A stretch of 56,163 bases of DNA. Origin: Thiohalomonas denitrificans. Its GTDB lineage: Bacteria > Pseudomonadota > Gammaproteobacteria > Thiohalomonadales > Thiohalomonadaceae. Location of the stretch: assembly GCF_016841685.1 (NCBI RefSeq), contig NZ_JAENYR010000018.1, positions 1 to 56,163 on the forward strand, in the 5' to 3' direction. The position numbers and the translations under genes were made by a program. The notes under the pieces are model-generated. The model was given only the letters and a program-made list of their open reading frames with translations. It had not been told where the DNA came from and made no database searches. Below, piece by piece: positions 5,478-24,950 of this stretch; within the stretch, counting starts at the first letter, position 1; each line of letters starts with the position of its first letter.

Positions 5478-5908
5478 TGCGCTTCCCTTGGTTGGTGAAC
5501 CACCAGTGCCTTTCCTTCCAGCAGCAGTTTTGCGTCGGAACTGACGGTGAAGGCGTACAGGAAGGCGAATTCGTCGCCACCCTCCCGTTGCGCTTCAATC
5601 GTCAGCGGCTCCGCAGTCTCATCGAGCCTCTCGGCATGTAGCCGGATCTGACGGAGCGCCGCGATATAGCCCACCTTCGGCGGCTCATTCCCTGCACTGC
5701 GCAGCGCTCCGTGCACCGCCATCGCCTGGGCGGCGTACTCGACACCGCAGACGGCCGGCAGGCCCTCCTCATTCCGTAACGGGTTGTCTGTCAGGCGGTG
5801 GGTGGCGCTGCGGCAAACGATACGGGCATCATCCCAATGCACCACCTCGTCAAGCAGGCACATGGTGCCCGCGTGGGGTATCGAGGCGCAGAGTTCATCT
5901 CTGGTCAT
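5474..5908 (-). CDS. Hotdog-fold dehydratase (ApeP-like)
   Basis: A 144-residue FabZ/FabA-related 3-hydroxyacyl-ACP dehydratase. The N-terminal PHAGTMCLLDEV segment carries the catalytic His (residue 12), and GVEYAAQAMA carries the acidic partner. This is the shorter dehydratase form typical of aryl polyene clusters. It would dehydrate the hydroxy intermediate to build the conjugated polyene. It overlaps both neighbours by 4 bp. A second hotdog protein is encoded at 12236-12529. Confidence 0.87.
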   Translation of the reverse strand: MTRDELCASIPHAGTMCLLDEVVHWDDARIVCRSATHRLTDNPLRNEEGLPAVCGVEYAAQAMAVHGALRSAGNEPPKVGYIAALRQIRLHAERLDETAEPLTIEAQREGGDEFAFLYAFTVSSDAKLLLEGKALVVHQPREAQ

Positions 5909-7871: not shown

Positions 7872-7928
7872 CGTACAGAGTGAAGCCAGAAATATTCGCT
7901 ACACCGGCGATTCAGTGCAGGCGATAAT

Positions 7929-10259
7929 TTATCGGCGGGATGTGGCTGTGACCACCTTGTCCCGAGAGGGGCTATTATGCGCCATCAGGGCGGTAAAGAT
8001 AAGGCTGAGCGGCGCACCGATGGCCACCGTGGCGCCGATGGCCTTCAGCACCGGGACAGCGGAACCGGCTAGCGCACCGAAAACCAGCACGGTGGTCATG
8101 TTGCAGACCAGCAGGGCGGTTGCTGTCGCCCGGCGTTCCGCCGCATCCGTGCGCAAGCGCTCGTAGAAAAGCCCGTAATCCAGTCCGATGCCGAGCAGGA
8201 GCAGTAGCGAAGAGAGGTGAAACAGAGAGAGCGGTGTTCCGCCCGCGACCAGCAGGGCGGCCGACATGACTATCGCCGCCGCGGTGGGAGTCATGACCCG
8301 GACCACTGCGCCGGGACGGCGCAGGGCAGCAAACAGCACGCCGACGATAATCAGTGCGCCGATAGCAAAAAGCCCCAGCGCCTCGTCACGATACCCGCCG
8401 ATCAGCCGGGCCGCTTCGACCGAAAGGTCGAGGTGGGTAAGCCCCGGCGTCGTTACGGCAAACGCAGCGACGGCCTCCGGGGTTTTGACTCCGGACAGGG
8501 TGATGAGACCGACGGTCTGCCCCTCATAGGTTCTGAGCAGGGCCTGGAGCCGCTCGCCGAGAGGCGAGCCGTCCAGCATCGCGGGAAGCAGCGGCGGTAA
8601 CGAGCGGCTGGCGTCGACATCGTTGGCGAAAGGCGAGAAGAGACCTCGGCGGAAGGGCAGGTCTTCGGTCGCCTTCTCAATCCAGCGCTTCAGTTTGGAA
8701 GCTTCCGGCAACTGCTGCTGCCTCGCTTCCTGCCGTGCGATGCTCGGCAGGTAGTGCGAGGGTAGTTCGAATCCTTGCAGGGCTCCGTCGGAGACCAGCT
8801 CTTCAAGCGCCTCCTCCAGTCGCTCTGCGGATTCCAGTACATCCTGTGTGGATCCCCGTTCGATGAGCAGCAGGTGGCGGACATCGGGAGCACCGATGGC
8901 GTTTCGCAGTCGGCGGTCCAGTTGTTTACCTTCCTCGGATAACGGACTGAGCGCACTGAGATCCCGCTCCCAGACCGTATCACTGCCCGCGAGGGTCAGC
9001 ACACCGACGACTAAGAGCAGCGGCGGTAGCCAGCCGGCGCGACCGTTCATGTGTGCAAACAGCCGCTCCGCACGGTGACTCGTCACGGAAGGGAGGGTCG
9101 GCCCGAGTGTCGGCAGCACCCAGCGCGTGGTGGCGACGGCGGCGAGTAACCCGGTGATGGCGAACACGCCCAACTGGGAGAGGGCGGAAAATCCGGAAAA
9201 CAAAAGCGCGCTGTAACCCAGAGCCGTGGTGAAGACGCCGAGGCGCAGGGTCGGCCAGAGACGGCGGGCCGCTGATGCCGTGGTACCGGTTTCTCGTGCA
9301 TAACTGAAAAGATGAATAGGATAGTCCACCGCCACACCCACCAGGCTGAAACCGAAGGCAAGGGTGATTCCATGCAGGCTGCCGAAGGACAGGGTCACCG
9401 CGGCGGCCCCGGCCAACAGGCCGGTGGCCAGGGGCAGGACGCCGAGGATGACTACCGGTGCCGAGCGATACACGGCCAGCAGCAGCAGGAGTACGCCTCC
9501 GCCGGCGAGCAGTGACAGGCGGCGGGTCTCGCTGCTGATCAGACGTTTCGATTCCACAGCGAAAACCGCAGGGCCGGTCAGTTCCAGCCGCTGTCCGCTC
9601 TCCGCGCTATCCTCGAATGCCGTGCGGATCCGTTGCACCGCGGCGTGTTGTCCGTCCAGATCGAGAGTGTCGTCAGCCATGGTGATCAGGAGCAGCGCCT
9701 TGTCGCCCTCCGGTGTGAACCAGACGCCATGGTGCAAATGCGGTCCCTGCTGGCCGCCCCGCAGATTACGGGCTAGTTCACGACCGGCGGCAACCGGATC
9801 GGCCGATACGTTGCGATTGTCGACGAGAAAAGCTGAGCTCTGCGAGGTGATCTCCTCCAGCCGCTCCTCAAGCGCGTGGTGGAGACCGGCGGAGTCGAGC
9901 CGGGCCGCGGTATCGGTAAGCAGGTAACGGTAGCCAAACAGCGGTTCGGCGGAGGCGGTGGCGGTAAACGGTCCGTTCAGGACTCGTCCGAATTCGCCCT
10001 TGGCGGCAAGGAGATCGAGCATTCGGTTGCTGGTGGTCGCCAGTTTTTCGGCCTCGCCTCCCGAAAGGGCAGCGATGATTAGGCGGGAGGCCGGTCCTTG
10101 CTGCAACTCATCCAATAAGAATCGCTGCTGCTGGTCGTTTCCCTCCGGGAGAAATTGAAGAAGGTCGGTCTGGAGCGCTGGTCCGCGTAACAGGACGACA
10201 CCCGCCAAAATCAGTAGGGCGGCCCAGAGTCCCGCCGGAGACAGATGGCGTGCGGTCAC
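7929..10259 (-). CDS. MMPL/RND-family exporter (ApeN-like)
   Basis: A large inner-membrane transporter of about 776 residues with two repeated halves. Each half has one N-terminal membrane segment, a large periplasmic domain and a block of five to six membrane helices. This is the MMPL layout found in aryl polyene and xanthomonadin clusters, where it is thought to move the lipid pigment to the periplasm. The frame is open to 10433, but the extra N-terminal 58 residues come from the adjacent inverted-repeat element. The GTG at 10259 gives a normal start (TARHLSPAGLWAALLI). Its upstream region is therefore the repeat element at 10264-10620. Confidence 0.82.
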   Translation of the reverse strand: MTARHLSPAGLWAALLILAGVVLLRGPALQTDLLQFLPEGNDQQQRFLLDELQQGPASRLIIAALSGGEAEKLATTSNRMLDLLAAKGEFGRVLNGPFTATASAEPLFGYRYLLTDTAARLDSAGLHHALEERLEEITSQSSAFLVDNRNVSADPVAAGRELARNLRGGQQGPHLHHGVWFTPEGDKALLLITMADDTLDLDGQHAAVQRIRTAFEDSAESGQRLELTGPAVFAVESKRLISSETRRLSLLAGGGVLLLLLAVYRSAPVVILGVLPLATGLLAGAAAVTLSFGSLHGITLAFGFSLVGVAVDYPIHLFSYARETGTTASAARRLWPTLRLGVFTTALGYSALLFSGFSALSQLGVFAITGLLAAVATTRWVLPTLGPTLPSVTSHRAERLFAHMNGRAGWLPPLLLVVGVLTLAGSDTVWERDLSALSPLSEEGKQLDRRLRNAIGAPDVRHLLLIERGSTQDVLESAERLEEALEELVSDGALQGFELPSHYLPSIARQEARQQQLPEASKLKRWIEKATEDLPFRRGLFSPFANDVDASRSLPPLLPAMLDGSPLGERLQALLRTYEGQTVGLITLSGVKTPEAVAAFAVTTPGLTHLDLSVEAARLIGGYRDEALGLFAIGALIIVGVLFAALRRPGAVVRVMTPTAAAIVMSAALLVAGGTPLSLFHLSSLLLLLGIGLDYGLFYERLRTDAAERRATATALLVCNMTTVLVFGALAGSAVPVLKAIGATVAIGAPLSLIFTALMAHNSPSRDKVVTATSRR

Positions 10260-10263
10260 GCTT

Positions 10264-10620
10264 GGCAGCCTGTCGAACTCAGGAATAATCTGCTCGGCAG
10301 CATGCTCCTCGACAATAGGCTCCACGCTTTGTCTACGGCCGCCATCGACGACGGCGTGCGCTGCTCTACTACCTGCACCGACCCACAGGGATGTGGGAAA
10401 TGCTGGAGGATGGCCGGGAGCAATCCCTGCCATGCAGGCGTGCGCCGATGGGAGAGCGGTCCGGATTTCCCCGATTTTTCGTTACGTCGAACCACTCGGC
10501 TTTGGCTCCTTGAGAGGATAGGTTACAGACGCTCTCTGCTACCGCCATCCATGGCGGCACGCGTCCCTCTGACGCCTGCGGTCCATGCTCGTTACGATTA
10601 CCTGAGTCCGACAGGTTGCC
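10264..10620. mobile_element. Inverted-repeat element, family 2, copy in the exporter/LolA gap
   Basis: The ends are GGCAGCCTGTCGAACTCAGG (10264-10283) and its inverted counterpart CCTGAGTCCGACAGGTTGCC (10601-10620), 20 bp with two mismatches. The interior around 10460-10500 resembles the other family 2 copies (TTTCCCCGATTT followed by CGTT and GACCCACT-like bases). No transposase is encoded. Its right end codes the last residues and stop of the LolA-like gene, and its left end stops 4 bp before the preferred exporter start. It fills the 338-bp gap between these two genes. Confidence 0.65.
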
Positions 10621-11215
10621 GGGCGTCGATCTTCATCACCGTGTAATTACCGCTCGCCTCATAAGTGGTGAAGGTTCGGATGACGCCTCGGTTGCCTTCG
10701 ATGAGGATGAGGTCGAGGGCGAAGCCGAGCTTGTCGCCCCGTGGTTTCAGTTCCATCCGCCAATTGGAGCGGGTGCCGTCGAATACCACGTGATAGAACC
10801 TCTCCAGCGTCTCGCGATCACCGGCCAGGGTGGCCCGGAAACTTTCGACGAAACCCTTCACCGGCGGTGCAGCGGAGAGCCGTATTTCCTTCGTCGGCTC
10901 CCCCTGCTTCTCGATTCGAAGTGTGTCGCCATCGACCACGAGCCGTTCGGGTTTGTCGGCCTCAACAGCCTTGATCATGCTGCTGGGCGCTTCGAAGCGA
11001 AGCCTCCCACTAACCTCGATTGGAGGCCCTTCGAGTATCGGGATGTGGCGAAATTCGGTGAACAGGAGTTCATCGGATTTTTCGGCGGCTATGGCGGCGA
11101 GCGTTTGATTGAGCGACCATCCATCGGATGCACCCGCTACTCCGAAGAAGGAGCAGAGTAGCGCAAACAGAGCGCCTCTGGGAGCCTGTCGGATTATGGT
11201 GCCCGCAGCGGGCAA
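10598..11215 (-). CDS. LolA-like outer membrane lipoprotein carrier (ApeM-like)
   Basis: About 205 residues with a signal-peptide-like start (LFALLCSFFGVAGA). A LolA-like beta domain follows: a FTEFRHIPILEGP segment, GRLRFEAPSSM and a DGDTLRI strand. Such proteins in aryl polyene clusters are thought to carry the lipid across the periplasm. The gene lies between two family 2 repeat elements. The start is uncertain: the frame is open through the upstream element and the TTG at 11215, inside that element, is only a proposal. The C-terminal PVGLR and stop are also encoded by repeat sequence. Both ends therefore look remodelled, although the core is intact. Confidence 0.72.
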   Translation of the reverse strand: MPAAGTIIRQAPRGALFALLCSFFGVAGASDGWSLNQTLAAIAAEKSDELLFTEFRHIPILEGPPIEVSGRLRFEAPSSMIKAVEADKPERLVVDGDTLRIEKQGEPTKEIRLSAAPPVKGFVESFRATLAGDRETLERFYHVVFDGTRSNWRMELKPRGDKLGFALDLILIEGNRGVIRTFTTYEASGNYTVMKIDARQPVGLR

Positions 11216-11347
11216 AATGAGAGAGCGATCCCAAACTTTCGCGATTTTCGAGTCGCATAGTGGGTCTACGCAACGAGAAATCGGGGAAATTTGGGCCGCT
11301 CTCCCACCGGCGCAGTAGGAGCAGCCATCATCCGACAGGTTCCTAGG
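11181..11347. mobile_element. Inverted-repeat element, family 2, copy upstream of the LolA-like gene
   Basis: The left end is GGAGCCTGTCGGATTATGG at 11181 and the right end is CATCATCCGACAGGTTCCTAGG ending at 11347. They form an inverted repeat of about 20 bp with few mismatches. The interior has the family block GAGAAATCGGGGAAATTTGGG. The CCTAGG at the right end supplies the TAG stop of the acyltransferase gene (11343-11345). Confidence 0.72.
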
Positions 11348-12236
11348 GTTTGGACCAGAAGTCATAGAAATTGAACCAGTTATAGGGCGCCTGTCGGCAA
11401 TGGTGTTCGAGCCTGTCGGCGTATTTTTGCATCCACCGACGCACATCGTCCATTCGATCTTCACCTTCGATGGTGATCTCTTCGGTCAGTAGTTCAAAGT
11501 GGATCTCATAGCGGGAGCCGCCTCGAAGGATGCCGAATGCCAGGATGACGGGAACCTTCAGCAGGGCGGCAAGCAACAGTGGCCCCCCGGGAAATGCTGC
11601 CTCACGGCCAAAGAAGCGGCAGCAGATAGTGCGCTCATCGGTGGTGACCCGGTCTCCGAGTACACCCAGCATCTCGCCGCTGTCTACCGCCTCCTTGGCT
11701 CGAAGCAGGGTATCGGCGCAACCTATCGGAATCACAGTCCGGGTGATCTCGGGATTGACCGCATTGAGCGCAGCATTGATCTTTTCCGCGTTCCGGTCGT
11801 ACATCAGCACCTTGAGCGGCAGCTCTTTTTCAAAGATACCTCCCGCCCGCATGATCTCGAAGCTGCCGAGGTGCGAACCGAGCAGAATGAGACCTTTTCC
11901 GCGATGGAAGTGCTCCATGACCAGGGACTCGCCATGAATGCTGACGTCAAAACGGTTTTTATCGCGGGAGAGCAGATAGACCCGGTCGAGGATCACCGCG
12001 GCAAAGGTATGATAATGGCGGAAAAGGTCGCGGACAGTCGGCTTACGCCCCAGCGCCTGCAGCAGGTAATCGCGGGAGGCGGCCCGCGACTTTCCTGAAA
12101 AGAGTACGAAGTAGAGCGATATGGGGTAGAGGAAAGCCCGGGCCACCGGTCGGCCCAGCTTCAGGGCAATCCACACAATCAGGCGGATCAAAAAGCGGCT
12201 GCCCCGCTCGGGTTGTCTCATCCACTGCCGGCTCAT
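11343..12236 (-). CDS. LpxL-like lysophospholipid acyltransferase
   Basis: A 297-residue inner-membrane acyltransferase of the lauroyl/myristoyl (HtrB/LpxL) type, with the HxxxxE-type active site visible in GSHLGSFE and a later FFGREAAFPGGP block. Aryl polyene clusters usually carry one or more such enzymes, which probably attach the polyene acyl group to a lipid acceptor. Its start overlaps the dehydratase stop. The TAG stop falls within the CCTAGG end of a repeat element, so the original C-terminus may have been slightly longer or different. Confidence 0.85.
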   Translation of the reverse strand: MSRQWMRQPERGSRFLIRLIVWIALKLGRPVARAFLYPISLYFVLFSGKSRAASRDYLLQALGRKPTVRDLFRHYHTFAAVILDRVYLLSRDKNRFDVSIHGESLVMEHFHRGKGLILLGSHLGSFEIMRAGGIFEKELPLKVLMYDRNAEKINAALNAVNPEITRTVIPIGCADTLLRAKEAVDSGEMLGVLGDRVTTDERTICCRFFGREAAFPGGPLLLAALLKVPVILAFGILRGGSRYEIHFELLTEEITIEGEDRMDDVRRWMQKYADRLEHHCRQAPYNWFNFYDFWSKP

Positions 12237-12529
12237 CAGAGGGCGTTTTCGCTGGCCGGGAGGGAACCGGTGGCGATGCCCCGCTCACCGACACTGACTG
12301 TAAAGTGCATGCGTCCGTCACGCCCCGCGGCCGTATCGACCGCGAAGGTCTCACCGGGCTTGAGCGGGCTGATGAATTTGACACTGCTGAAGACGGCCCC
12401 AGCGTTATTGATCCGGGCAGCACGCAACACATGGTCGAGGATCACCACACCCGGTACCACCGGATTGCCGGGAAAATGGCCCTGGAGTGCCGGGTGGTTA
12501 GCCGCAATCTGGGCCTTGTAGGGTGCCAT
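12236..12529 (-). CDS. Hotdog-fold dehydratase (ApeI-like)
   Basis: A 97-residue small hotdog protein with the FabZ-like HPALQGHFPGNPVVPG signature close to the N-terminus. The ATG at 12529 follows a TGAGGA ribosome binding site just after the ligase stop codon. Together with the protein at 5474-5908 it gives the two dehydratases that aryl polyene systems typically have. It overlaps the acyltransferase start by one base. Confidence 0.85.
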   Translation of the reverse strand: MAPYKAQIAANHPALQGHFPGNPVVPGVVILDHVLRAARINNAGAVFSSVKFISPLKPGETFAVDTAAGRDGRMHFTVSVGERGIATGSLPASENAL

Positions 12530-12537
12530 ATCGATCC

Positions 12538-13851
12538 TCAGGTTTTCGACAACAGTTTTAGTAATCGTTCGCGAGAGAGCTTGCCGCTGGCATTTCGCGG
12601 TAGCGCCTTGACACATTGCAGCGGGCGCGGCAAAAAGACCGGATCGATGCGTTTTCCAAGTTCCTGTAGCAACTCCCTTTTGGTCCGCGTCGGAGCCACC
12701 ACGACAGCGGCCAGCCGATGTACATCACCATCGCTTGCATGCGGCACCAGAAAGGTACCGTCCTCCACGCCGTCAATGGAGTGCAGTTTGTGGTTGAGGT
12801 CACCTAACGAGCCCCGTTTGCCGGCGATCTTTACGAGATCGGCAGTCCGGCCAAGTAGCTCCAGGGTGCCGTCGCCGTTCTCCTTCAGCCGGTCATCCAG
12901 CCGGACCGGCCGGGACAGATGATCGGCTTCGGCCAACCAGTGGCTTCCCTCCCGGTGGATCCGAAAGCCCTCGAACGGTTCCCAGCCCGTTCCTTCCGCT
13001 GAGCGGCGGCTTGCCATGGCACCCGTCTCTGTACTCCCGTAGATTTCCTGGACGGGACAGCCGAATTGCCTTTCGGCGGTTCGAGCCATTTCGGTCGACA
13101 GGGGAGCGGTGGCCGAGAGTATAAACCGAAGCCCAGGCAGGGCCGTTTTTTCCGCAATACAGGCACGAAGATGGAGAGGGGTGGTTATCAGGATTCGCGG
13201 TTCAGGTACCTCAGAGAGCGCTTCGGCGAGGTTGCGCGGGAAGAATGGTCTCCCGGTATGGAACCCCCACCCCCATCGGAGGCCCAGCATGATGGAGGTT
13301 TCCAGTCCAAACATGTGTTGTGGCGGAACGGTCGCTACCAAACTGCCTCTCTCGTCCTGATCGAGACCCAAACGTCGGCCGATCCGTGTCGCACCGGACA
13401 CCATTTCGCCCCAGCGCTTGGGATTCGACCTCGGCCGGCCGGTACTGCCGGAGGTAAATACTTCGGCCATAATCTGATCCCCGGAAAAGGCGGGAATCCG
13501 TTCTGAAGGTGCACTGCAGCCGGGTGGTTCGTGGAACTCCACGCAGGCCACCCCTTCCGGGCAGGGGACGCCGTCGGTCACGCATACCGGTCGCTCCCGG
13601 TCTGATACAACCTGTTTCAGCGCTTCGGGCACGGTACTCGGTGGTAATAGGTTGGGCCGCTTGCAGACAAGGCCCGCCGTCAGGGTTACCAGAAAGCGGT
13701 AGCGGTCTTCACAGACGTTGAGAATGGCGTTGCCGGTGGTCGGTAACCGCTCCGACAGGTGATAGACATCGCCCAGAAAAGTCCGTCCGTCGATGGGACC
13801 GTGTCGGTTCCAGGCCACCGGCTGTCTGTGCGATTGCAGCAGCGGAATCAT
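12538..13851 (-). CDS. Aryl-AMP ligase (ApeH-like)
   Basis: A 437-residue acyl-adenylating enzyme. It shows the ATP-binding loop TSGSTGRPR, the YGSTETGAMASR motif, the GRTADLVKIAGKR hinge and the catalytic Lys in NASGKLSRE, all in order. In aryl polyene synthesis this enzyme activates an aromatic starter acid, such as 4-hydroxybenzoate or a cinnamate, and loads it on an ACP. Its start overlaps the upstream membrane gene by 4 bp. At 437 residues it is shorter than typical acyl-CoA synthetases, as expected for the APE type. Confidence 0.88.
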   Translation of the reverse strand: MIPLLQSHRQPVAWNRHGPIDGRTFLGDVYHLSERLPTTGNAILNVCEDRYRFLVTLTAGLVCKRPNLLPPSTVPEALKQVVSDRERPVCVTDGVPCPEGVACVEFHEPPGCSAPSERIPAFSGDQIMAEVFTSGSTGRPRSNPKRWGEMVSGATRIGRRLGLDQDERGSLVATVPPQHMFGLETSIMLGLRWGWGFHTGRPFFPRNLAEALSEVPEPRILITTPLHLRACIAEKTALPGLRFILSATAPLSTEMARTAERQFGCPVQEIYGSTETGAMASRRSAEGTGWEPFEGFRIHREGSHWLAEADHLSRPVRLDDRLKENGDGTLELLGRTADLVKIAGKRGSLGDLNHKLHSIDGVEDGTFLVPHASDGDVHRLAAVVVAPTRTKRELLQELGKRIDPVFLPRPLQCVKALPRNASGKLSRERLLKLLSKT

Positions 13852-14489
13852 GGTTCCCCCCCTCTTCCGGACAAGCTTTGCGGGTCGACTCTGTACAGGG
13901 CCCGGAAGAACCGGACTGCCGAGTGGTGCCGGAAGCGGATCAATCGAACGGTAAGTTCAATGGCGAACACTCCTGCGATGAACAGGTAGTTGAGCACGTT
14001 GGCGAAGAGTGACCAAACTGCAAGCGGCGCATAAACGGCGAGTAGAATCGACTCAATCAGCATCAGGGCGAAGAACAGGGTCCAGACCCGGGTTACTTGG
14101 CGTGTGTAGCGTTGGGTGTCCGGGTCAGTCTCGTTCATCAGTATCCGGGCGAACCGGGTTACGATTGGTTCAGCGCCGGCTTGCAGACTGCGACCGAAAA
14201 GGATCAATAGACTGAGACTGACCAGAATGGGGGGCAGGTAAAGGGCCTCATAGTCACCATTTACCATGCCGTAACTGCAAAGGCCCACCACTGCAGTGGC
14301 TACGGCGGCCGTGATAAACCTGTGGGACATCAATCCACGTGAGGCATGCAGCAGGGCGACAAGCGCCACTAGTCCCAATCCTGTGCGGGCATAACCGAAG
14401 ATGATCAGAAGATGTAGCCCAACCGGGGCAGCTATGGTCAGTCCGATCGAGAGCCGAGTCAGTATGCGCCGGATGTTGGCGGCCGCCAT
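13848..14489 (-). CDS. COG4648-type membrane protein (ApeG-like)
   Basis: A 213-residue integral membrane protein with about five hydrophobic segments and a short polar loop around residues 125-145 (MNETDPDTQRYTRQVTRVWT). Proteins of this family are regular members of aryl polyene and related acyl clusters, but their function is not known to me. The ATG at 14489 is preferred because it begins just after the ACP stop (4-bp gap) and gives a hydrophobic N-terminus. It overlaps the ligase gene by 4 bp. Confidence 0.75.
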   Translation of the reverse strand: MAAANIRRILTRLSIGLTIAAPVGLHLLIIFGYARTGLGLVALVALLHASRGLMSHRFITAAVATAVVGLCSYGMVNGDYEALYLPPILVSLSLLILFGRSLQAGAEPIVTRFARILMNETDPDTQRYTRQVTRVWTLFFALMLIESILLAVYAPLAVWSLFANVLNYLFIAGVFAIELTVRLIRFRHHSAVRFFRALYRVDPQSLSGRGGEP

Positions 14490-14493
14490 CCCA

Positions 14494-14751
14494 CTACTTC
14501 GCGTTTTCCGCGATGTGGGCACTCAGCGATCGGAGCGAGGCAAAGATATTGGCATTATCGCCGTCATCGGAGCGCAGTTGGAAGCCGTATTTTTTGGAAA
14601 TGGCCATCGCCAGCTCCAGTGCGTCGATGGAGTCGAGACCGAGGCCCTCCCCGAACATGGGCTCCTCCGGCCGGATATCCTCAGGTTCCACGTCGAGATT
14701 CAGTGCGTCGACGATCAATTCGGCTACTTGCTTTTCAAACCTTTCGGACAT
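14494..14751 (-). CDS. Acyl carrier protein 1 of the aryl polyene arm
   Basis: An 85-residue acidic acyl carrier protein with the phosphopantetheine attachment site GLDSID at Ser41. Two adjacent ATGs (14754 and 14751) follow a GAGGGGG ribosome binding site, and the second has the better spacing. It is the first gene of the left-arm operon and should carry the growing aryl polyene chain. The 122 bp upstream separate it from the divergent outer membrane protein gene, so the promoters of both are probably there. Confidence 0.87.
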   Translation of the reverse strand: MSERFEKQVAELIVDALNLDVEPEDIRPEEPMFGEGLGLDSIDALELAMAISKKYGFQLRSDDGDNANIFASLRSLSAHIAENAK

Positions 14752-14873
14752 CATTCCCCCTCTACACGAGGTAAAGCTTTTCGACTTCTGGACATGAAGT
14801 TCAATATGCCGCAAGACTGCAGCGCGCAGGATAACTACAATCGGGCGGCCTATTTTCCGGGGGGGGCGACACG

Positions 14874-15731
14874 GTGTCAATAAAGAAAACTCATCCGCCT
14901 GATCGGTCGTTGGCTGTTCAGGTAACCGTCATTGCGCTGATATTTCTGGTCGGAGGGCGAGCCGCCTGTGCCAAACAGGCCCCGATGTGGGAGTTGGGGG
15001 CTGGCATCGGGCACATCCGTTTTCCCGATTATCGCGGCGCCGAATCGATTTCGGACTATCGGGTCGGCTTTCCCTATCTGGTGTATCGCGGCGACCGGCT
15101 CAAGCTTGACCGCGAAGGTTTTCGTGGTCTGCTGTTCGAGTCCGAGCACTGGAAGTCCGATTTCAGTATCGATGGATCGGTCCCGGTGGACAGTGATAAT
15201 GGGGGGTTGCGTGCAGATATGCCTGACCTCGACCCCGCCCTCGAAGTGGGGCCCTCGCTGGTCTATGAATTCAGCCGCAGTTCGGCCCGTACTGTTGCGC
15301 TGCATCTGCCTGTACGGGCGGTAATTGCCACCGACCTGCGAAAGGCCCATCTGGAAGGCTGGGTGTTTCATCCCCACCTCCGTGCCAACTACTGGGGTCG
15401 GTTCAATTTCGGTGTTTCCGCGGGTCCGCTGTTCGGGGCTTCGTCCTATCACCGCTACTACTACGCCGTCGATCCCGATTACGCCACCCCGGAGCGGCCC
15501 GCCTACCGACCGGATGGTGGTTATAGCGGTTTTCGCATCACGCTGAGTGTTTCGCGCCGGTTCGGCCGCTTGTATGTGGGATCATTCCTGCGCTATGACG
15601 ACCTCTCCGGTGCGGAGTTTGCCGACAGCCCGCTGGTGGAGACGGAGCGGGCGGTGATGGCAGGGGTGAGCATGGCCTGGATCTTTGCTGAGTCGGATCG
15701 GATGGTGACCATCGCCGTCAACGAGCGTTAG
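14874..15731 (+). CDS. MipA/OmpV-family outer membrane protein
   Basis: A 285-residue predicted outer membrane beta-barrel with an N-terminal signal (AVQVTVIALIFLVGG). MipA/OmpV features include GAGIGHIRFPDYRGA near the N-terminus and alternating amphipathic strands to the end. It begins at a GTG and is divergent from the pigment operon. Its position between the two arms of the cluster suggests an outer-membrane role linked to pigment or to lipid placement, but this is inference. Its stop codon overlaps the left direct repeat of a family 1 element, so the extreme C-terminus may have been altered by that insertion. Confidence 0.82.
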   Translation: MSIKKTHPPDRSLAVQVTVIALIFLVGGRAACAKQAPMWELGAGIGHIRFPDYRGAESISDYRVGFPYLVYRGDRLKLDREGFRGLLFESEHWKSDFSIDGSVPVDSDNGGLRADMPDLDPALEVGPSLVYEFSRSSARTVALHLPVRAVIATDLRKAHLEGWVFHPHLRANYWGRFNFGVSAGPLFGASSYHRYYYAVDPDYATPERPAYRPDGGYSGFRITLSVSRRFGRLYVGSFLRYDDLSGAEFADSPLVETERAVMAGVSMAWIFAESDRMVTIAVNER

Positions 15732-16761: not shown

Positions 16762-16973
16762 AGTTCCCAATCCGCGGATGGAGCCTGACAGGCTGGCGCA
16801 CCTCACCAGCATTTCCCCTTCTGTCCACAAGGGACAGCGTGACACACTGTGACGTATCATGTATTTTTCACGCCCGGTCGGAGAACCCCGCATTCATCGG
16901 CGTTAAAAATCAGAAGGGAGCATCGATAAAGCAGGCCGAAAAGGGTAGGTCACCGCTTTCTCGCTCTATTTCC

Positions 16974-17930
16974 ATGGAAAAAAAGAGAGTCCTCGTTGTT
17001 TATTACTCCCAGACTGGCCAGCTGGCCCGTGTGGTGGAGTCCGTTATCGGTCCGCTTGCGGCGGAGCCGTCGATACGGGTCGATCTGGAGTGCGTCCGCC
17101 CCGAGAACGACTACCCATTTCCATGGCCCTTTTTTCGCTTCCTCGACGTCTTTCCCGAATCGGTCTATCTCGAATCCCCGGCACTGAAGCCTTGCGGCTT
17201 CGACCCTGACGCCGATTATGACCTCATCATTCTCGCTTACCAAGTCTGGTTCCTCTCGCCCTCGCTGCCCATCGCCGGTTTTTTGCAGTCCGCGTCGGGA
17301 CGCCGGGTACTGGCGGGCAAACCGGTGGTTACACTAATCGCCTGCCGCAATATGTGGCTCACCGCCCAGGAGAGGGTTAAAGAACTGCTCGGGGCGGCCG
17401 GCGCCCGCTTGCTCGATAACATCGCGTTGGTCGACGGGGGAAATAGCCTTGCCACCTTTATTACCACCCCTCGCTGGTTACTGACCGGCCACAAAGGTCA
17501 AACGGGTGGCCTGCTGCCACCCGCCGGCGTGGCCGAGGCCGATATCCGGGATTCGGCCCGATTCGGTCGTGCGCTCGTTGCCGCCCTGCGCGGGAATCTC
17601 GAGCGGGGCGAGCATCCCCTGCTGAAAGGGTTGCGCGCAGTCGAAGTGGACGAGAGACTTATCGCCAGTGAACGCATCGGCTATCGGAGCTTCAAGGTAT
17701 GGGGCCGGTTGATCCGGGCGGTGGGCCCCCAGGGCGCGATGCGACGCAAGCCCCTGCTCGCGATCTATTCGGTTTTTCTGGTGGCAATGATTTTGACCGT
17801 GGTTCCTGTCACCCTGCTGCTTCGTAAAGCGCTTTACCCGCTCATGCGGTCATCCCTTCAGCGGCAAAAGAGCCTATTGGAACTGCCTTCGGGTTCGGGT
17901 GATTTTCGACTGGAGGAGTTTAGGGAGTGA
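16974..17930 (+). CDS. darA: DarA-type dialkylresorcinol synthesis protein
   Basis: A 318-residue protein starting with a flavodoxin-like fold (VLVVYYSQTGQLARVV) and ending with a hydrophobic segment (AIYSVFLVAMILTVVPVTLLL). It matches the DarA family, proposed to aromatise the cyclohexanedione made by DarB into a 2,5-dialkylresorcinol. The flavin-type fold suits an oxidation step. The ATG at 16974 is chosen because it starts the flavodoxin domain, and the longer frame upstream adds a non-conserved tail. No strong ribosome binding site is visible. The stop overlaps the darB GTG start by 4 bp. Confidence 0.85.
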   Translation: MEKKRVLVVYYSQTGQLARVVESVIGPLAAEPSIRVDLECVRPENDYPFPWPFFRFLDVFPESVYLESPALKPCGFDPDADYDLIILAYQVWFLSPSLPIAGFLQSASGRRVLAGKPVVTLIACRNMWLTAQERVKELLGAAGARLLDNIALVDGGNSLATFITTPRWLLTGHKGQTGGLLPPAGVAEADIRDSARFGRALVAALRGNLERGEHPLLKGLRAVEVDERLIASERIGYRSFKVWGRLIRAVGPQGAMRRKPLLAIYSVFLVAMILTVVPVTLLLRKALYPLMRSSLQRQKSLLELPSGSGDFRLEEFRE

Positions 17931-19081
17931 GTGCCGAGGTCTATATCAACCGAACCTCGCTCTTTTTGCCCGGGGAGTCCGTTGACAATGACGATATCGA
18001 AGCAATGCTCGGTGAAGTCGCCGGCCGGCGTTCCCGTTCCAAGAACATCGTTCTGCGCAACAACGGAATTCAGGCCCGGCATTATGTGCTTGACCCTGAA
18101 ACGCGCCGTTCCCGTTATTCGAATGCCAGGGTCACTGCCGAGGCGGTAAAAGGTTTTGTCGACAGTGAGTTTTCCCTCGCCGATATCGACTGCCTTAGCT
18201 GCGGTACCAGTTCACCTGATCAGCTCATGCCCAGCCACGGTGTCATGGTCCATGGGGAGTTGCGTGAAGTGGGGCTGTGTGAAGTGATGGCCGCTTCGGG
18301 CATCTGCATGTCGGGTATAACGGCGCTCAAATATGGCTGGCTTTCGGTGCGCACCGGCGAGCACCGCAATGTGGTCGCTACGGGCTCGGAGGTGGCGTCC
18401 ACCTTCATGCAGTCGAAGAACTTTGAGCCGGAATTACAGGCCCGCATCAAAGCACTGGAAGCGCGTCCTGAAATCGCCTTCGATCGTGAATTTCTGCGAT
18501 GGATGCTCTCTGATGGTGCCGGCGCCGTACTGATGCAGGACCATCTCGCAGGACCGGGCCTCTCGCTACGGCTCGACTGGATCGAATCGCTCTCCTTTGC
18601 CTACCGTATGGAGACCTGCATGTACGCAGGCGCGGAGAAGGAGCCGGACGGCACCCTTCGCGGCTGGCGCGAATTTTCCGACCTGGAGGCGGCGGTGCGC
18701 TCTTCCGTCTTTACGGTCAAGCAGGATGTGAAGCTGCTGCACGAAAACATCACCCGCATCGCAGTGGAGGAGGGGCTGTCCGAAGTGAGGCGGCGTCGGG
18801 ATCTGGAAGCCATTGACGTCGATTGGTTTCTTCCGCACATGTCCTCGGAATATTTTCGCCAACCTATCGCCGAAAGCCTGGAGCGAATTGGCTTTGCGAT
18901 CCCCGGGGAGCGCTGGTTCACCAATCTGCAAACTACCGGTAATATCGGTTCAGCCTCCTGGTACGCCATTCTCGATGGTCTGGTCGACAGCGGAAAGCTC
19001 AGTTCCGGCGAACGACTGCTCTGCATGGTGCCTGAGAGTGGTCGCTTTTCAGTGGCTTACCTGCACCTGACGGTGGTGTGA
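17927..19081 (+). CDS. darB: DarB-type ketosynthase III
   Basis: A 384-residue KAS III-like condensing enzyme with the Cys-His-Asn set intact: Cys127 in ASGICMSG, His304 in LPHMSSEYF and Asn339 in TTGNIGSAS. DarB enzymes condense two beta-keto or acyl thioesters and cyclise them to a 2,5-dialkylcyclohexane-1,3-dione, the precursor of dialkylresorcinols. The GTG at 17927 lies behind a TGGAGGAG ribosome binding site inside the end of darA, so the two are translationally coupled. It is followed after one base by the next gene. Confidence 0.9.
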   Translation: MSAEVYINRTSLFLPGESVDNDDIEAMLGEVAGRRSRSKNIVLRNNGIQARHYVLDPETRRSRYSNARVTAEAVKGFVDSEFSLADIDCLSCGTSSPDQLMPSHGVMVHGELREVGLCEVMAASGICMSGITALKYGWLSVRTGEHRNVVATGSEVASTFMQSKNFEPELQARIKALEARPEIAFDREFLRWMLSDGAGAVLMQDHLAGPGLSLRLDWIESLSFAYRMETCMYAGAEKEPDGTLRGWREFSDLEAAVRSSVFTVKQDVKLLHENITRIAVEEGLSEVRRRRDLEAIDVDWFLPHMSSEYFRQPIAESLERIGFAIPGERWFTNLQTTGNIGSASWYAILDGLVDSGKLSSGERLLCMVPESGRFSVAYLHLTVV

Positions 19082-19082
19082 G

Positions 19083-19484
19083 ATGAAAAGACACGAAGTC
19101 CCCCAGGATGCCAATAGCGCCTTGCGGGGTGAGCGAAAGGCGGTTTATGCCCTCGACGAGGAGGGGCGCTATACCGTGGTGGCCTCCAGTGGCTGGCAAG
19201 TGGAGGAGACTGTCACCACGATGGCGGTAGAGCTCTATGCCGAACAGGCCGAGGAGGCCCGCCGCCGGGTATGGGAAGGTCTGGCCGCGCCTCTGGAGTA
19301 CCACATGTTTCGCCGTCGACTGGACATCCCTACTCTGGCCCGGGAAGTGGGAATGATGCGCTGGCGCGTCAGCCGGCATTTGAAACCGAACAACTTCGCC
19401 GGATTGGGGAACAGGATGTTGGCGCGCTATGCCGAGGTGCTCGGTATAAGGATCGACGAGTTGAAAAAGGTGCCTGATGCCTGA
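19083..19484 (+). CDS. Unknown protein with a possible HTH, darB-BtrH linker gene
   Basis: A 133-residue soluble protein. The C-terminal half (about residues 75-130) has a helix-turn-helix-like pattern (YHMFRRRLDIPTLAREVGMMRWRVSRHL). The N-terminal half has short strands and no motif I recognise. It starts one base after darB and overlaps the BtrH-like gene by 8 bp, so it is made with the pathway enzymes. It could be a regulator or a small accessory protein that binds an enzyme or ACP. The sequence alone does not decide. Confidence 0.65.
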   Translation: MKRHEVPQDANSALRGERKAVYALDEEGRYTVVASSGWQVEETVTTMAVELYAEQAEEARRRVWEGLAAPLEYHMFRRRLDIPTLAREVGMMRWRVSRHLKPNNFAGLGNRMLARYAEVLGIRIDELKKVPDA

Positions 19485-20490
19485 TACCACCGCGGCCGCG
19501 CAGCGCCCGGAGTTCCACCATAGCCACTCCGCTCACTGCGAAAGCGGGGTGATGTCGTCGCTACTGCGCCATTATGGACTGGACATCTCGGAGCCGATGG
19601 CCTTCGGTCTCGCATCGGCACTGGCATTTGCCTACGTCCCGATCATCAGGGTGGGTGGGTTTCCGCTCTTCGCCTACCGCATGCCCCCTGGTGCCATCAT
19701 CAAGGGGCTGCGAAAGAGCCTTGGGGTGAAGATGCGTCTGCATCACTACCGGAATGAACAGGCCGGCATGAAAGCCCTTGACGATCACCTCGACAGCGGG
19801 CGCGTGGTCGGACTGCAGAGCTCTGTCTATTGGCTGCCCTACTTCCCCCCCGACATGCGCTTTCACTTCAATGCCCACAACCTGATTGTTTTCGGGCGCA
19901 ACGAAGCCGGCGGTTATCGGATCAGCGACCCGGTCTTCGAGCACACCGTTACCTGCCCCGCTGCCGACCTGCAGAAGGCGCGATTCGTGAAAGGCGTCTT
20001 CGCTCCCAGAGGATTGCTTTACTACCCGGAACGGATGCCGACCACGATCGATTATGATCACGCAGTAGGCAAGGCAGTGAAAAAGACCGCCTTTCGTATG
20101 CTGAAGGCACCGCTTTCCTTCGTCGGTGTGCGAGGTATCCGCACCCTGGCCCGTCGTTTGGGAGGACTGCCTTCTTCCGGTACGGACCCGCGCTATGCAC
20201 GGCTGCTGGTGGCGCAGATCATCCGCATGCAGGAAGAGATCGGTACCGGAGGGGGCGGGTTTCGTTTTATGTACGCCTCCTTCCTTCAGGAGGCATCCGA
20301 CAGGATCGGGCAAAGCCACCTTTCCGAGGCGGCTGCCGCAATGACCGAAGCCGGGGACGCATGGCGGGACTTTGCGCTGGCCGGTGCCAGACTCTGCAGA
20401 GACAGGGGGAATAGCGATTACGCCGGCCTGGCACACAAACTCTTCACCTGTGCCGAGCGCGAAGAGAGCGCCTATCGCATGATGCTGTGA
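19477..20490 (+). CDS. BtrH-like acyltransferase (BtrH_N + DUF4872-type)
   Basis: A 337-residue protein whose N-terminal domain has the papain-like BtrH pattern. Cys21 is in AHCESG, His134 in FNAHNLIVFG and Asp151 in RISDPVFEH. The C-terminal ~130 residues are helical, like DUF4872. BtrH of butirosin synthesis moves an acyl group from an ACP to a small-molecule acceptor. Here the gene is the last of the dar operon, so it is a good candidate for joining the ACP-bound aryl polyene to the resorcinol hydroxyl. That role is inferred from family and context. It converges on the minus-strand chain-length-factor-like gene with a 40-bp gap. Confidence 0.82.
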   Translation: MPDTTAAAQRPEFHHSHSAHCESGVMSSLLRHYGLDISEPMAFGLASALAFAYVPIIRVGGFPLFAYRMPPGAIIKGLRKSLGVKMRLHHYRNEQAGMKALDDHLDSGRVVGLQSSVYWLPYFPPDMRFHFNAHNLIVFGRNEAGGYRISDPVFEHTVTCPAADLQKARFVKGVFAPRGLLYYPERMPTTIDYDHAVGKAVKKTAFRMLKAPLSFVGVRGIRTLARRLGGLPSSGTDPRYARLLVAQIIRMQEEIGTGGGGFRFMYASFLQEASDRIGQSHLSEAAAAMTEAGDAWRDFALAGARLCRDRGNSDYAGLAHKLFTCAEREESAYRMML

Positions 20491-20530: not shown

Positions 20531-21415
20531 TTAGTGGGTCACCAGGCGTAGTGCGGTTAGAAAGCCGCGTGAGTCGCGATTGACGTGGAGTAACTCGGCG
20601 GCGGGTTTTTCCTGAATGAATCGGCTAATCCCCTGCGCGGCATTGCTTTCGTAGTAGCCGGCCGAGCTGATGTAATCGAAACGGCGTCCCGTTTCCAAGC
20701 GGGTTTCCAGCCGCTCCAGCATCGCCTCATCGACCCCGTTGCCACCCGCCAGCCAGGTCATTTTGTCCATCCTCCAGGCTGTCGCGGTTTCGCAGAACCG
20801 GGACTCGTCGGTAAAACGGGCGAGGCGTGTGATCTCGGCAACGAACTCTCCATCCGTGCCGAGGTGCAGCCAGTGACTACCTTCGCCGATCGGTGCGTCC
20901 TTACTCAGACGCAGGCGCCGGCGGTGATGATCGAGGGGCCGTGTGAGCTCGTCGACGCCACCCACCAGCGCCTCTCGTATCCGTCCCTCCATCAGCCCGA
21001 ACCATGCCAGCTCCAGCGCTGCCTCGAAAGGGAACGTCTCCCGTGAAACGGTCATGTTCTCCCCCTCGAGGGCGAGACTCTGGCCAATGTAAAATCCGGC
21101 GGTGTTACTCGAGACGTTGATGAAGGTGAACGGCATCGGAGTCTGGTGCTTCGTCTGGATTTGGTGCATCAGTTCGACTGTGTCGGAGAGGCTGCATTGA
21201 CCCGTGGCCGTATAGACCGGACATGCTGGCAGCGGCCGTTTGCTTGAGCCGTTTGCACACCGGTTGGCACCAATAAGCGCAAGATCGATGAAGCGATTGG
21301 TGCGTCGGAATACCTTGCCGCATGCCTCCCTGACCATGGGGCGAAGATCCGATGTCGTGTTTTCCGCCGTAAAGTGAACGCCCCCGGTACTGAGGATCTT
21401 CAGTGAGTCGATCAT
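20531..21415 (-). CDS. Second chain-length-factor-like ketosynthase partner
   Basis: A 294-residue thiolase-fold protein lacking the ketosynthase Cys. The equivalent loop reads FINVSSNTAGFYIG (residues 98-111), which resembles the NSVHNAPAGYW loop of the first chain-length factor in this locus. It overlaps the start of the upstream ketosynthase frame's stop by 4 bp (ATGA). It should pair with that ketosynthase as a KS:CLF heterodimer. It diverges well from the first chain-length factor, so this is not a recent duplication. Confidence 0.75.
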   Translation of the reverse strand: MIDSLKILSTGGVHFTAENTTSDLRPMVREACGKVFRRTNRFIDLALIGANRCANGSSKRPLPACPVYTATGQCSLSDTVELMHQIQTKHQTPMPFTFINVSSNTAGFYIGQSLALEGENMTVSRETFPFEAALELAWFGLMEGRIREALVGGVDELTRPLDHHRRRLRLSKDAPIGEGSHWLHLGTDGEFVAEITRLARFTDESRFCETATAWRMDKMTWLAGGNGVDEAMLERLETRLETGRRFDYISSAGYYESNAAQGISRFIQEKPAAELLHVNRDSRGFLTALRLVTH

Positions 21416-22575
21416 CGGCTCTTCTCTATGATCAGACTGGTGTTATTGCCGCCAAAACCGAAATAGTTACATAGTACAACGCCACGCCCCATGGTCAGCG
21501 GCGTTCTCATGGGTACGACGCCGAGTTTCGGATCGGGCCGGCTAAAACCTGCAGTGGGCGGCAGAAAACCTTCGTGCAGGCAGCCCGAAAGGGCCGCGGT
21601 TTCCAGAGCACCGCACGCACCGAGTGTGTGACCGATGCTACCCTTTATCGAAGTTAGCGGGGGGAGTTGTTCCGGGAATACCCGACGCGTTCCCACGGCC
21701 TCGGTTTCGTCATTCAACGCTGTTGCCGTCCCGTGTGCCTTTATGGCCGTGATGTTCTCGGGTAACAGGCCGGCCTCGGCAAGGGCTCCGCGGATTGAGC
21801 GTTCTATGCTCTCGGATTTCGAAGCGGTGAGATTACTCGTATCGGTGTGGCTGAATCCGGCGACAAACCGCAATGGGTTCGTTCCTGTGCAATCCGCGTC
21901 GCCTCCCAGGATGATAGCGCCGACACCCTCGCCGAGCACCAGGCCGCTGCGCTTCTCATCGAATGGGCGTACCCCATCCCGGCTCAGCAGCATCAGTGCC
22001 TCGAAGCCCTCCAGCGAGATGCGATTGAGCAGCTCGACACCGACAACCAAGGCTAGACGGACAAATCCGGCGCGGACCATACGCGCCGCGTGCAGCAGCG
22101 CATTGGCGCTGGAGGTGCAGGCAGTATTGTAGACGAACTCGCGTTCACGGCTGCCGATATGTTCGGCAATACGGGCCGCAAGGCCTCCGTAGCGGGATTC
22201 GACCGGCACGAAGTCCGCCTGGCCGCGGGCCAGCGCCTCAGTGTACCGCTGTTCCCAATAGCCGATATCCAGAGAGGATGTGCCGACGAATACGGCTGTC
22301 TCGGCGAGGGCTTCATCCTCGAGGCCCGCCTCGGCGACGGCATCGTCGATCGCGGCCACAACCGCAGGCGGCAGCAGCGACGCCGTGTGCCCGGGGGTGG
22401 TCGACCGGAAGTAGGATACCTTCCCCTTGCTGATGTCCGAGAGGGCGATGCTCGCTTGCGGAGACTCCGCCTCCCGGAGTCGGGCGGTGACAATCCCCTG
22501 GTCGCGGCCGAGTGCGCATACGGTCCCGGTACCGAGAAGGTAAACCGCATCCTGTTTGGGAAATGGTCGCTGCAC
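21412..22575 (-). CDS. Second beta-ketoacyl-ACP synthase
   Basis: A FabF-like condensing enzyme of about 387 residues with Cys153 in NTACTSSA, His281 in KAHGTATA and His316 in SIGHTLGACG, so it should be active. The open frame reaches a TTG at 22611, but the GTG at 22575 begins two bases after the ACP stop and gives a normal N-terminus. It lies between an ACP and a chain-length-factor-like gene. It may elongate the alkyl chain precursors for the resorcinol, or act as the second (ApeR-like) ketosynthase of polyene synthesis. Confidence 0.88.
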   Translation of the reverse strand: MQRPFPKQDAVYLLGTGTVCALGRDQGIVTARLREAESPQASIALSDISKGKVSYFRSTTPGHTASLLPPAVVAAIDDAVAEAGLEDEALAETAVFVGTSSLDIGYWEQRYTEALARGQADFVPVESRYGGLAARIAEHIGSREREFVYNTACTSSANALLHAARMVRAGFVRLALVVGVELLNRISLEGFEALMLLSRDGVRPFDEKRSGLVLGEGVGAIILGGDADCTGTNPLRFVAGFSHTDTSNLTASKSESIERSIRGALAEAGLLPENITAIKAHGTATALNDETEAVGTRRVFPEQLPPLTSIKGSIGHTLGACGALETAALSGCLHEGFLPPTAGFSRPDPKLGVVPMRTPLTMGRGVVLCNYFGFGGNNTSLIIEKSR

Positions 22576-22576
22576 G

Positions 22577-22843
22577 CTATTCGGGGCGCACGTAATCGGC
22601 AAAGGCGTCAATCGAGGTGAAGATGCGGCGTACCTCCTTATTGTCCGTTATCTTGACACCGAACTGCCGCTCCATGGCCACCGAGAGCTGAAGACCATCG
22701 AGGGAATCAAGCTCCAGGGGGCTTTCGGGGCCGAAAAGGGGAGCATCATCCGGTATTTCCTCGGGAGAGGCGTCCTTGTCGCATTCGGTGATGATGAACT
22801 GCTTAAGTTCCCGTTTGAATGTGGAGTCCGCTGAACCTTTCAT
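22577..22843 (-). CDS. Acyl carrier protein 2
   Basis: An 88-residue acidic acyl carrier protein with the phosphopantetheine site LELDSLDG at Ser47. It is only loosely similar to ACP 1 (Ser41 in GLDSID), so the two are probably used by different synthases. It is followed after one base by the second ketosynthase and preceded by 6 bp from the ABC permease. Confidence 0.87.
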   Translation of the reverse strand: MKGSADSTFKRELKQFIITECDKDASPEEIPDDAPLFGPESPLELDSLDGLQLSVAMERQFGVKITDNKEVRRIFTSIDAFADYVRPE

Positions 22844-22849
22844 CCTTCA

Positions 22850-24046
22850 CTATCTGATCGTTCGGGTGAAAATCGCCGAAGCCAGGGCTAGGCTGACGCC
22901 GCCAAACAGCACGAGTCCGCCCGCTTCCGGCAGCACATCCTTCCAAGACCCGTGGCGTAAAAAGATGTCGAGAAAACCTTCCATGCCCCAGGACATGGGG
23001 GATATCACGGCCACCGCCTGCATTGCCGGTGGCATGATGAATTTCGGCACCATGATACCGCCAAGCGCAGCAAAGATGATATTGGAAATGCCGCCGAGTG
23101 TCGTTGCCTGTACCGTCGTGCGGGCGAAGACGGAAATCAATAGCGCGAAACCGATGGCAGCGATACTGGTTCCGCTGGAGATGATCAGCAGGCCGAAAAC
23201 TGAATCGGCCATCTCCAGCCGGTCCCCGCCGAGTAGTGGAACCACATAAATCCCCACCAAAATCATCAGTACCATCTGCACCTGGTTGACCAGGTAATAC
23301 GGTACTACCTTGGTGGTCAGCATGAGGTGAGGGGAGATATTGATTACCCGCAACCGCATCAGGGAGCCCTGTTGACGTTCAATGATATAGGCGGTGGATA
23401 TGGGAATCACGACGAAGAACATCGAAAATACCAGCCACGCGGGCACGCTCTGCTGAACCGCGGTCGGTATCAGGGATGCGCTGTGTTCGCCGTAGATATA
23501 TTGCTGTCGTATGGACGGCTTGATAAATGCGATGTCGGTATCCATCGAAGCCCCGATAGCCGAGACCATCCGCTCGGCGGTCATTCGGCTGACGATCCCG
23601 CCGACTGAAGCGGCAACAAGCTCTTTCAGTTGCGGCTGCACCGATGGCGCCAGGAGAATCTCGAGGGATACCTCTTCCTGACCCGGGGCACCATTGCGGA
23701 GTCGTGTCTCAGCCGATTCTGTCCAGCCTTCCGGAATGAGGATGGCGAATTTGTACTCATCCCGGGAGAGCTGTTTTCGGATCTCCGCTACGTCCCGCTC
23801 TACGGCAGTAAAGGCAAAGCCGTCGAGTTCCGACAGCCTTTCATGAAGTGCATTTGCCAGTTCACCTTGATCGTGGCTGGCGATCAGCGCCTGTACGGCT
23901 GTTCGTTGATCGCCGAGGGTGTCCTGCATCGCCATCGACATAATCAGGATGAAAACCGCCGGCATCACGAACAGCACCAGTAGCCCGTGCCGGTCCTTGC
24001 CGAGGAGCAGTAGCTCTTTCTTCAATAGCGCAGCCAGAGGGGGCAT
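22850..24046 (-). CDS. ABC-2 type transporter permease
   Basis: A 398-residue inner-membrane permease. One N-terminal helix is followed by a ~150-residue extracytoplasmic domain and five to six helices, including the family's REEQ-like cytoplasmic segment (IIERQQGSLMRLRV). It forms a pair with the ATPase gene 1 bp upstream and precedes ACP 2 by 6 bp. The operon position suggests export of the resorcinol, the polyene or the joined pigment. The substrate is not shown by sequence. Confidence 0.85.
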   Translation of the reverse strand: MPPLAALLKKELLLLGKDRHGLLVLFVMPAVFILIMSMAMQDTLGDQRTAVQALIASHDQGELANALHERLSELDGFAFTAVERDVAEIRKQLSRDEYKFAILIPEGWTESAETRLRNGAPGQEEVSLEILLAPSVQPQLKELVAASVGGIVSRMTAERMVSAIGASMDTDIAFIKPSIRQQYIYGEHSASLIPTAVQQSVPAWLVFSMFFVVIPISTAYIIERQQGSLMRLRVINISPHLMLTTKVVPYYLVNQVQMVLMILVGIYVVPLLGGDRLEMADSVFGLLIISSGTSIAAIGFALLISVFARTTVQATTLGGISNIIFAALGGIMVPKFIMPPAMQAVAVISPMSWGMEGFLDIFLRHGSWKDVLPEAGGLVLFGGVSLALASAIFTRTIR

Positions 24047-24047
24047 A

Positions 24048-24950
24048 TCAGTCCCGGAGCGTCCGATGAGTGAGTTCCAGGAAAAGCGATTCCAGATTGC
24101 GGTTGCCGTAATCGATATACTCCACGCCTATCCTGGCCTCTGTTAGTTGTTTCAGGAGCGTTGATATCTCTTCAGCAGTTGCTTCCGCCAGCCGGATGCG
24201 GCGATCTCCGGCCGTTAGCGCCAAGGTGGAGGCGAGCAGCTCCGGCAACGGCCGCGACAGGCCGATCTCCAGGCGGTTGCTGCTGTTGTGAAGAAGCGAA
24301 TCCAGAGAGTCGTTCACCAGAATCCGTCCTTCATCGATGATCGCCACATCCGTACAGATCTGCTGTACCTCTTCCATGTAGTGGGAGGTATAGATCACCG
24401 TGACTCCTTCCCGGTTGAGCCACTGGATGGTTTCCAGGATGAAACTGCGAGACTGGGGATCGATGCCGATTGTTGGTTCGTCCAGACAGAGAATGCGGGG
24501 ATTTCCAAGCAGTCCGATGGCCAGATTGAGGCGCCGTTTAAGGCCGCCGGAATACAGCCCACTGCGACGATCGAGCCAGGTTTCGAGGCCCGCAGTTTCC
24601 ACGCAGAAGGCGATCCGGCGACGACGCTCGCTCCTGGAGAGGCCCAGGGCACTGGCGAAAAAATCGAGGTTTTCCCGCGCGCTGAGTGTAGGGTAAAAGG
24701 CGAGGCTCTGTGGAACCAGTCCCATGAAAGCCCGAATGCGCCGGAGCTCCCGTCGCAGATCGAGTTTTTTCACGGACAGGGTGCCGCTGTCCATCGGTAT
24801 GAGACCGAAAAGAATGGATAGCAGGGTCGTCTTCCCGGCTCCATTCGGGCCCAGAAGCCCAAATACGGCACCCTCGGGGATCGTGAGCGATATACCGCGA
24901 AGGACTGGCTGACCACCGTATGCCTTTTCGATGTCGTTCAGTTCGATCAC
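24048..24950 (-). CDS. ABC transporter ATP-binding protein
   Basis: A 300-residue ATPase with Walker A GPNGAGKTT, Q-loop VPQSLAF, signature YSGGLKRRL, Walker B ILCLDEP and the switch His in YTSHYMEEV. A C-terminal extension of about 80 residues follows. It is the first gene of the minus-strand right-arm operon and the partner of the permease at 22850-24046. The promoter of the operon should lie in the 149 bp between it and the hydrolase gene. Confidence 0.9.
   Translation of the reverse strand: MIELNDIEKAYGGQPVLRGISLTIPEGAVFGLLGPNGAGKTTLLSILFGLIPMDSGTLSVKKLDLRRELRRIRAFMGLVPQSLAFYPTLSARENLDFFASALGLSRSERRRRIAFCVETAGLETWLDRRSGLYSGGLKRRLNLAIGLLGNPRILCLDEPTIGIDPQSRSFILETIQWLNREGVTVIYTSHYMEEVQQICTDVAIIDEGRILVNDSLDSLLHNSSNRLEIGLSRPLPELLASTLALTAGDRRIRLAEATAEEISTLLKQLTEARIGVEYIDYGNRNLESLFLELTHRTLRD

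Follow-up and report, generated by a model that had tools for sequence, protein, structure and literature searches.

Azoarcus sp. BH72 produces an ester of a polyene and a dialkylresorcinol, and in its arcuflavin locus the genes azo0293 to azo0290 represent darA, darB, a small gene and a BtrH-like gene (Table 1, PMC3949708). The last of these, azo0290 (darE), was listed as a 'BtrH-like peptidase' and assigned no role in that 2014 paper (PMC3949708), in which the names darG and darH denote other, toxin-antitoxin-like genes, the gene letters differing from those of NCBIfam. For C. pinensis, heterologous expression showed that darA and darB alone suffice for the dialkylresorcinol, and FlxW was suggested as the enzyme that makes the flexirubin ester (PMC3992019). 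In the literature found, flexirubin- and arcuflavin-type pigments had no more than a guess (FlxW) for the enzyme that forms their ester; the 2014 arcuflavin paper was the only one retrieved for DarH or BtrH in combination with flexirubin, and no paper was found in which esterification is linked to a BtrH-like protein.

Several enzymes related to BtrH-like proteins by domain or by fold have been characterised in other pathways. BtrH, the acyl-ACP:aminoglycoside acyltransferase of butirosin biosynthesis, acylates an amine of the aminoglycoside. In the CcbD reaction an acyl group moves from a carrier protein to a cysteine of the enzyme and on to an amine acceptor, and a broad range of acyl groups is tolerated, fatty acyl groups included (PMC12945683); the PDB entries of CcbD comprise a C19S variant and carrier-protein complexes. 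CtaG, from closthioamide biosynthesis, is the proposed mover of HBA from the carrier protein CtaH to a chain on the carrier protein CtaE (PMC6772006); PDB entries for it include the engineered variants C11A, H128A and D144N as well as a complex with p-hydroxybenzoate.

The window analysed here is a stretch of 56,163 nucleotides (positions 1 to 56,163 of contig NZ_JAENYR010000018.1) from Thiohalomonas denitrificans, in which a dar block and an aryl polyene block contain the following features:

4758-7871, minus strand: aryl polyene core, comprising a ketoreductase, an ApeP-like dehydratase, a CLF-like KS (PF13723) and a KS
11343-12236, minus strand: LpxL-like acyltransferase of the polyene block, a rival candidate for the joining step
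12538-13851, minus strand: ArcT-like AMP-ligase of the aryl polyene block
14494-14880, minus strand: second acyl carrier protein, in the polyene block (PP-binding, 1.2e-9)
16839-17930, plus strand: darA, assigned by gene order and conservation (41-60% identical homologues upstream of darB)
17927-19081, plus strand: darB, StlD/DarB family beta-ketosynthase for the dialkylresorcinol precursor (NF005293, 554.8 bits, cut-off 450)
19083-19484, plus strand: darG, 133 aa, NCBIfam DarG_fam (NF053536)
19477-20490, plus strand: darH, BtrH-related acyltransferase, 337 aa (BtrH_N, DUF4872, NCBIfam NF053550, conserved triad, predicted fold)
20531-21415, minus strand: DarK-like, chain-length-factor-like partner of DarJ, no active-site Cys apparent
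21412-22611, minus strand: DarJ-like ketosynthase with intact Cys/His/His motifs (TACTSS, AHGTAT, IGHTLG)
22577-22843, minus strand: DarC-like acyl carrier protein within the dar block, which may serve DarH as acyl donor
22850-24046, minus strand: DarI-like ABC-2 permease, in every DarH-bearing genome tested
24048-24950, minus strand: DarF-like ABC ATPase of the dar syntenic block

The polyene genes spanned 4009-14880 on the minus strand and encoded a GT2, KR, dehydratases, CLF, KS, an MMPL exporter, LolA, the LpxL-like acyltransferase, the AMP-ligase and the second ACP. The initial annotation had darH closing the dar operon, which is accurate for the plus-strand series darA-darB-darG-darH, of which it is the last gene; the dar locus itself continues, with DarK, DarJ, the ACP and the two-gene ABC transporter (20531-24950, minus strand) converging on darH and forming one syntenic block with dar. 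The arrangement resembles that of azo0290/darE, which likewise follows darB and one small gene (darD) directly, in an ester-producing genome (PMC3949708). No family match was obtained for darA in Pfam/NCBIfam profile scans, and because 16839-16973 overlaps a divergent DUF218 gene its listed start is likely too far upstream, the true start probably being near 16974 (MEKKRVLVVYYSQTG). DarG and darH overlap by 8 bp. In DarG, a XRE/lambda-repressor-like helix-turn-helix was predicted at the C-terminal end (residues about 62-133, Z 8-9), preceded by a short hairpin and a long helix, and the protein may be either a regulator or a partner protein. Elsewhere in the window, a 910-aa ORF (31201-33933, minus strand) matched signal peptidase II (Peptidase_A8) weakly, with 29.4 bits, at its N-terminal end.

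The BtrH-like protein that had been called from the sequence at 19477-20490 was confirmed as a plus-strand ORF with an ATG start codon and a 337-aa product. A BtrH_N domain (Pfam PF14399, residues 20-152, 158.4 bits, cut-off 29.7) was followed by a DUF4872 domain (residues 164-334, 176.5 bits, gathering score 28), so that both exceeded the Pfam gathering scores in the order required of the family. The NCBIfam model NF053550, 'BtrH-related acyltransferase DarH', matched over positions 1-324 of 325 with 467.5 bits (cut-off 300); the neighbours in related genomes are the same as here and no difference between the family and the DarH of the window was found. The gene is therefore a fresh example within an already catalogued family and not new as a sequence. 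The model name asserts an acyltransferase, as opposed to the peptidase label given to azo0290/darE in 2014, and does so without naming substrates. No signal peptide was apparent in the sequence, and DarH is most likely cytoplasmic.

Cys21, His134 and Asp151, the residues earlier proposed as a BtrH-type arrangement, each occupy the position claimed for them. All three were invariant across 46 DarH sequences (median pairwise identity 52%) and were also kept in 4 far more distant BtrH-like proteins that share 23-27% identity with the query; the C-terminal domain further contains a glycine-rich motif, E..GTGG..FR, that was invariant in the same two sets. Judged from sequence, these residues form the predicted catalytic triad, as expected of a BtrH-type Cys acyltransferase. 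A plasmid search returned only distant BtrH-like proteins of ~28% identity (Acinetobacter, Streptomyces, others).

The AlphaFold model of DarH was confident (pLDDT 91.1, pTM 0.89) and placed Cys21 at the beginning of a helix and His134 at the beginning of a strand, as in papain-like enzymes. Of the full-length PDB matches to the model, the best was AziU3/U2 (Z 23.9), followed by CtaG at Z up to 23.5 and CcbD at Z up to 21.1, so that the predicted model shares its two-domain fold with CcbD and CtaG (Z 21-24 over about 288-303 residues), while the next fold class, papain-like/C39 domains, matched with Z of ~13 or less and mainly in the N-terminal half. Searching PDB sequences with DarH, by phmmer and by profile, turned up no true relative, the hits being only helical designs and further helical proteins, and the structural link consequently rests on the predicted fold. 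Like DarH, the lincosamide condensing enzymes CcbD/LmbD have this whole-length fold (Z about 21), and their Cys thioester and carrier-protein donor are as proposed for DarH; they differ in their low identity (about 15%), in a Cys-His-Glu triad in place of Cys-His-Asp, and in a product that is an amide with an amino sugar instead of the ester proposed here. CtaG also shares the whole-length fold (Z about 23), its C11A/H128A/D144N variants mark a triad of the same kind and it binds an aromatic acid, but identity is only about 13%, no dar genes are involved and it is a proposed peptidyl transferase (amide). BtrH, compared through the Pfam model only, has BtrH_N (PF14399) and the conserved Cys in common with DarH. 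The fold matches appear to be the best evidence that DarH is a carrier-protein-dependent transferase, although they do not identify its acceptor, and we consider it highly probable that DarH is a carrier-protein-dependent acyltransferase of some kind.

We propose that DarH probably joins a polyenoyl chain to a dialkylresorcinol as an ester, giving a yellow membrane pigment. As a cytoplasmic, carrier-protein-dependent enzyme with a papain-like N-terminal and a helical C-terminal domain, DarH would accept the aryl-polyenoyl chain from an acyl carrier protein as a thioester on Cys21, possibly with the dar-block ACP (22577-22843) as the donor; His134 and Asp151 would activate a phenolic hydroxyl on the dialkylresorcinol that DarA/DarB supply, and this hydroxyl would attack the thioester, yielding a pigment ester of the arcuflavin or flexirubin type that would then be exported via the ABC pair. 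The ping-pong mechanism, the polyenoyl-ACP donor, the resorcinol acceptor and the order of steps are all what we infer to be most likely. The characterised fold relatives for which a mechanism was found make amides, and a phenol ester would represent a change of acceptor for DarH. A separate idea, that DarH is required for resorcinol formation, was set aside because darAB alone yields the dialkylresorcinol in a heterologous host (PMC3992019).

To survey co-occurrence, 369 genomes of the class were scored for DarH and DarB over cut-off and for PF13723 as the polyene CLF/KS marker, and these were detected in 18, 21 and 87 genomes, respectively. The initial annotation had asked whether the gene always accompanies dar and aryl polyene genes: all 18 DarH genomes carried both DarB and PF13723, compared with PF13723 in 69 of the 351 genomes without DarH (Fisher p 1e-12), and a BtrH-like gene beside darA/darB without polyene genes, named in advance as the case that would count against the idea, was seen in none of the 369. 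DarB over cut-off was itself accompanied by polyene genes in 21/21 genomes, including 3 without DarH, so the link between DarH and polyene genes may partly follow from darB. Among the genomes tested, DarG and the dar-type ABC permease (E below 1e-38) had the same distribution as DarH; since DarH comes and goes with darG and the ABC exporter, co-occurrence cannot single it out. The earlier suggestion of DarH as candidate polyene-resorcinol acyltransferase is partly backed, by the predicted CcbD/CtaG-like fold, the triad and co-occurrence, but DarH is not separated by these data from DarG, the ABC exporter, the ACP and DarJ/DarK.

Three genomes (G485, G508 and G396; 96, 82 and 85% complete) carried darAB and PF13723 without DarH, DarG or the ABC permease; darAB stand alone there, and in two loci of this set no acyltransferase was obvious beside darAB among the scanned genes. 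These genomes fit a DarG-DarH-ABC module that couples the polyene and resorcinol pathways. Loci L137, L138 and L139, which hold darAB in polyene-bearing genomes without the module, are natural controls for the coupling idea. DarH, DarG and PF13723 were all absent from 4 genomes with only distant StlD-like ketosynthases, and 2 genomes of the window's own family had PF13723 and no DarH.

Other genomes, of Pseudomonadota, Campylobacterota and Desulfobacterota, supplied 80 loci for comparison; most of these repeat the order darA-darB-darG-darH, and darG accompanied darH in 79 of them. Where at least 8 kb was available on both sides of darH (52 loci), DarA and DarB were found in 48, the ACP and DarJ in 50 and ABC genes in 48. 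The two genes darG and darH usually touch or overlap, the exceptions being several Pasteurellaceae loci (L048, L057, L061, L064, L069 and L070) with gaps of 0.2-2.2 kb. In some Desulfobacterota, darG-darH adjoined type II ketosynthase/ACP genes, with darB elsewhere or not found; in the assemblies of this phylum represented by L039 and L050 their neighbours encode a ketosynthase, an ACP and a PlsC-type acyltransferase, and darAB lay elsewhere or was not found; the L039 cluster additionally had thioesterase, dehydratase and radical SAM genes. DarB over cut-off was not found in the DarH-bearing L049 and L050 genomes, both metagenome assemblies. Some Desulfobacterota genomes give a weak PF13723 signal or none, so the lack of this marker was not read there as a lack of polyene genes. 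For Bacteroidota flexirubin clusters, the sole hint that the family is present is the NCBIfam name flexirubin_DarG.

The same neighbourhood bears on two other readings. DarH might act earlier, moving an acyl group between carrier proteins, for instance onto the dar ACP, or supplying acyl substrates to DarB or DarJ/DarK without forming an ester, and the usual company of an ACP and the KS/CLF pair DarJ/DarK is compatible with such a role, as is the carrier-protein-to-carrier-protein transfer of HBA proposed for CtaG (PMC6772006), which, CcbD apart, is the nearest fold match to have been studied functionally. We regard this as unlikely, given that darA and darB alone give the dialkylresorcinol heterologously (PMC3992019) and that the 3 genomes with darAB do without DarH. 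It is also doubtful, to a slightly greater degree, that the ester is made by DarJ/DarK, the LpxL-like acyltransferase or a FlxW-like ligase with DarH as an auxiliary protein: DarJ has intact KS motifs and scored 169.6 bits against AmcF, the cispentacin acyltransferase subunit model, yet this is below the cut-off and DarJ/DarK resemble an ordinary KS/CLF pair; the LpxL-like enzyme is unlikely to be specific to coupling because phospholipid-type acyltransferases are conserved across polyene clusters in general (PMC3949708); and FlxW was proposed for this step in C. pinensis (PMC3992019), but the dar and polyene genes scanned in the window showed no second AMP-ligase.

That DarH is a hydrolase or peptidase, releasing or editing acyl groups on a carrier protein or cleaving a peptide like the C39 enzymes found beside ABC transporters, is very improbable, for although its papain-like N-terminal domain matches C39 peptidases (Z up to about 13, in this domain only), an ABC pair lies nearby, an ABC transporter is present in every DarH-bearing genome tested and the Azoarcus counterpart was annotated as a 'BtrH-like peptidase' in 2014 (PMC3949708), DarH stands alone, unfused to a transporter, and the far stronger fold matches, which span both domains, are to biosynthetic proteins that include two with an assigned transferase role.

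Returning to DarH as the ester-forming enzyme, we judge it somewhat better than an even chance that this protein is the long-missing ester synthase of these pigments, a papain-like enzyme that turns an ACP thioester into a phenolic ester where its relatives give an amide, and that it belongs, with DarG and the ABC exporter, to a module inherited all-or-none that merges the polyene and resorcinol pathways. A single candidate of a known mechanism class with a named catalytic Cys makes the question of the ester directly testable. If the proposal is true, a fold known until now for making amides would gain phenols as acceptors.
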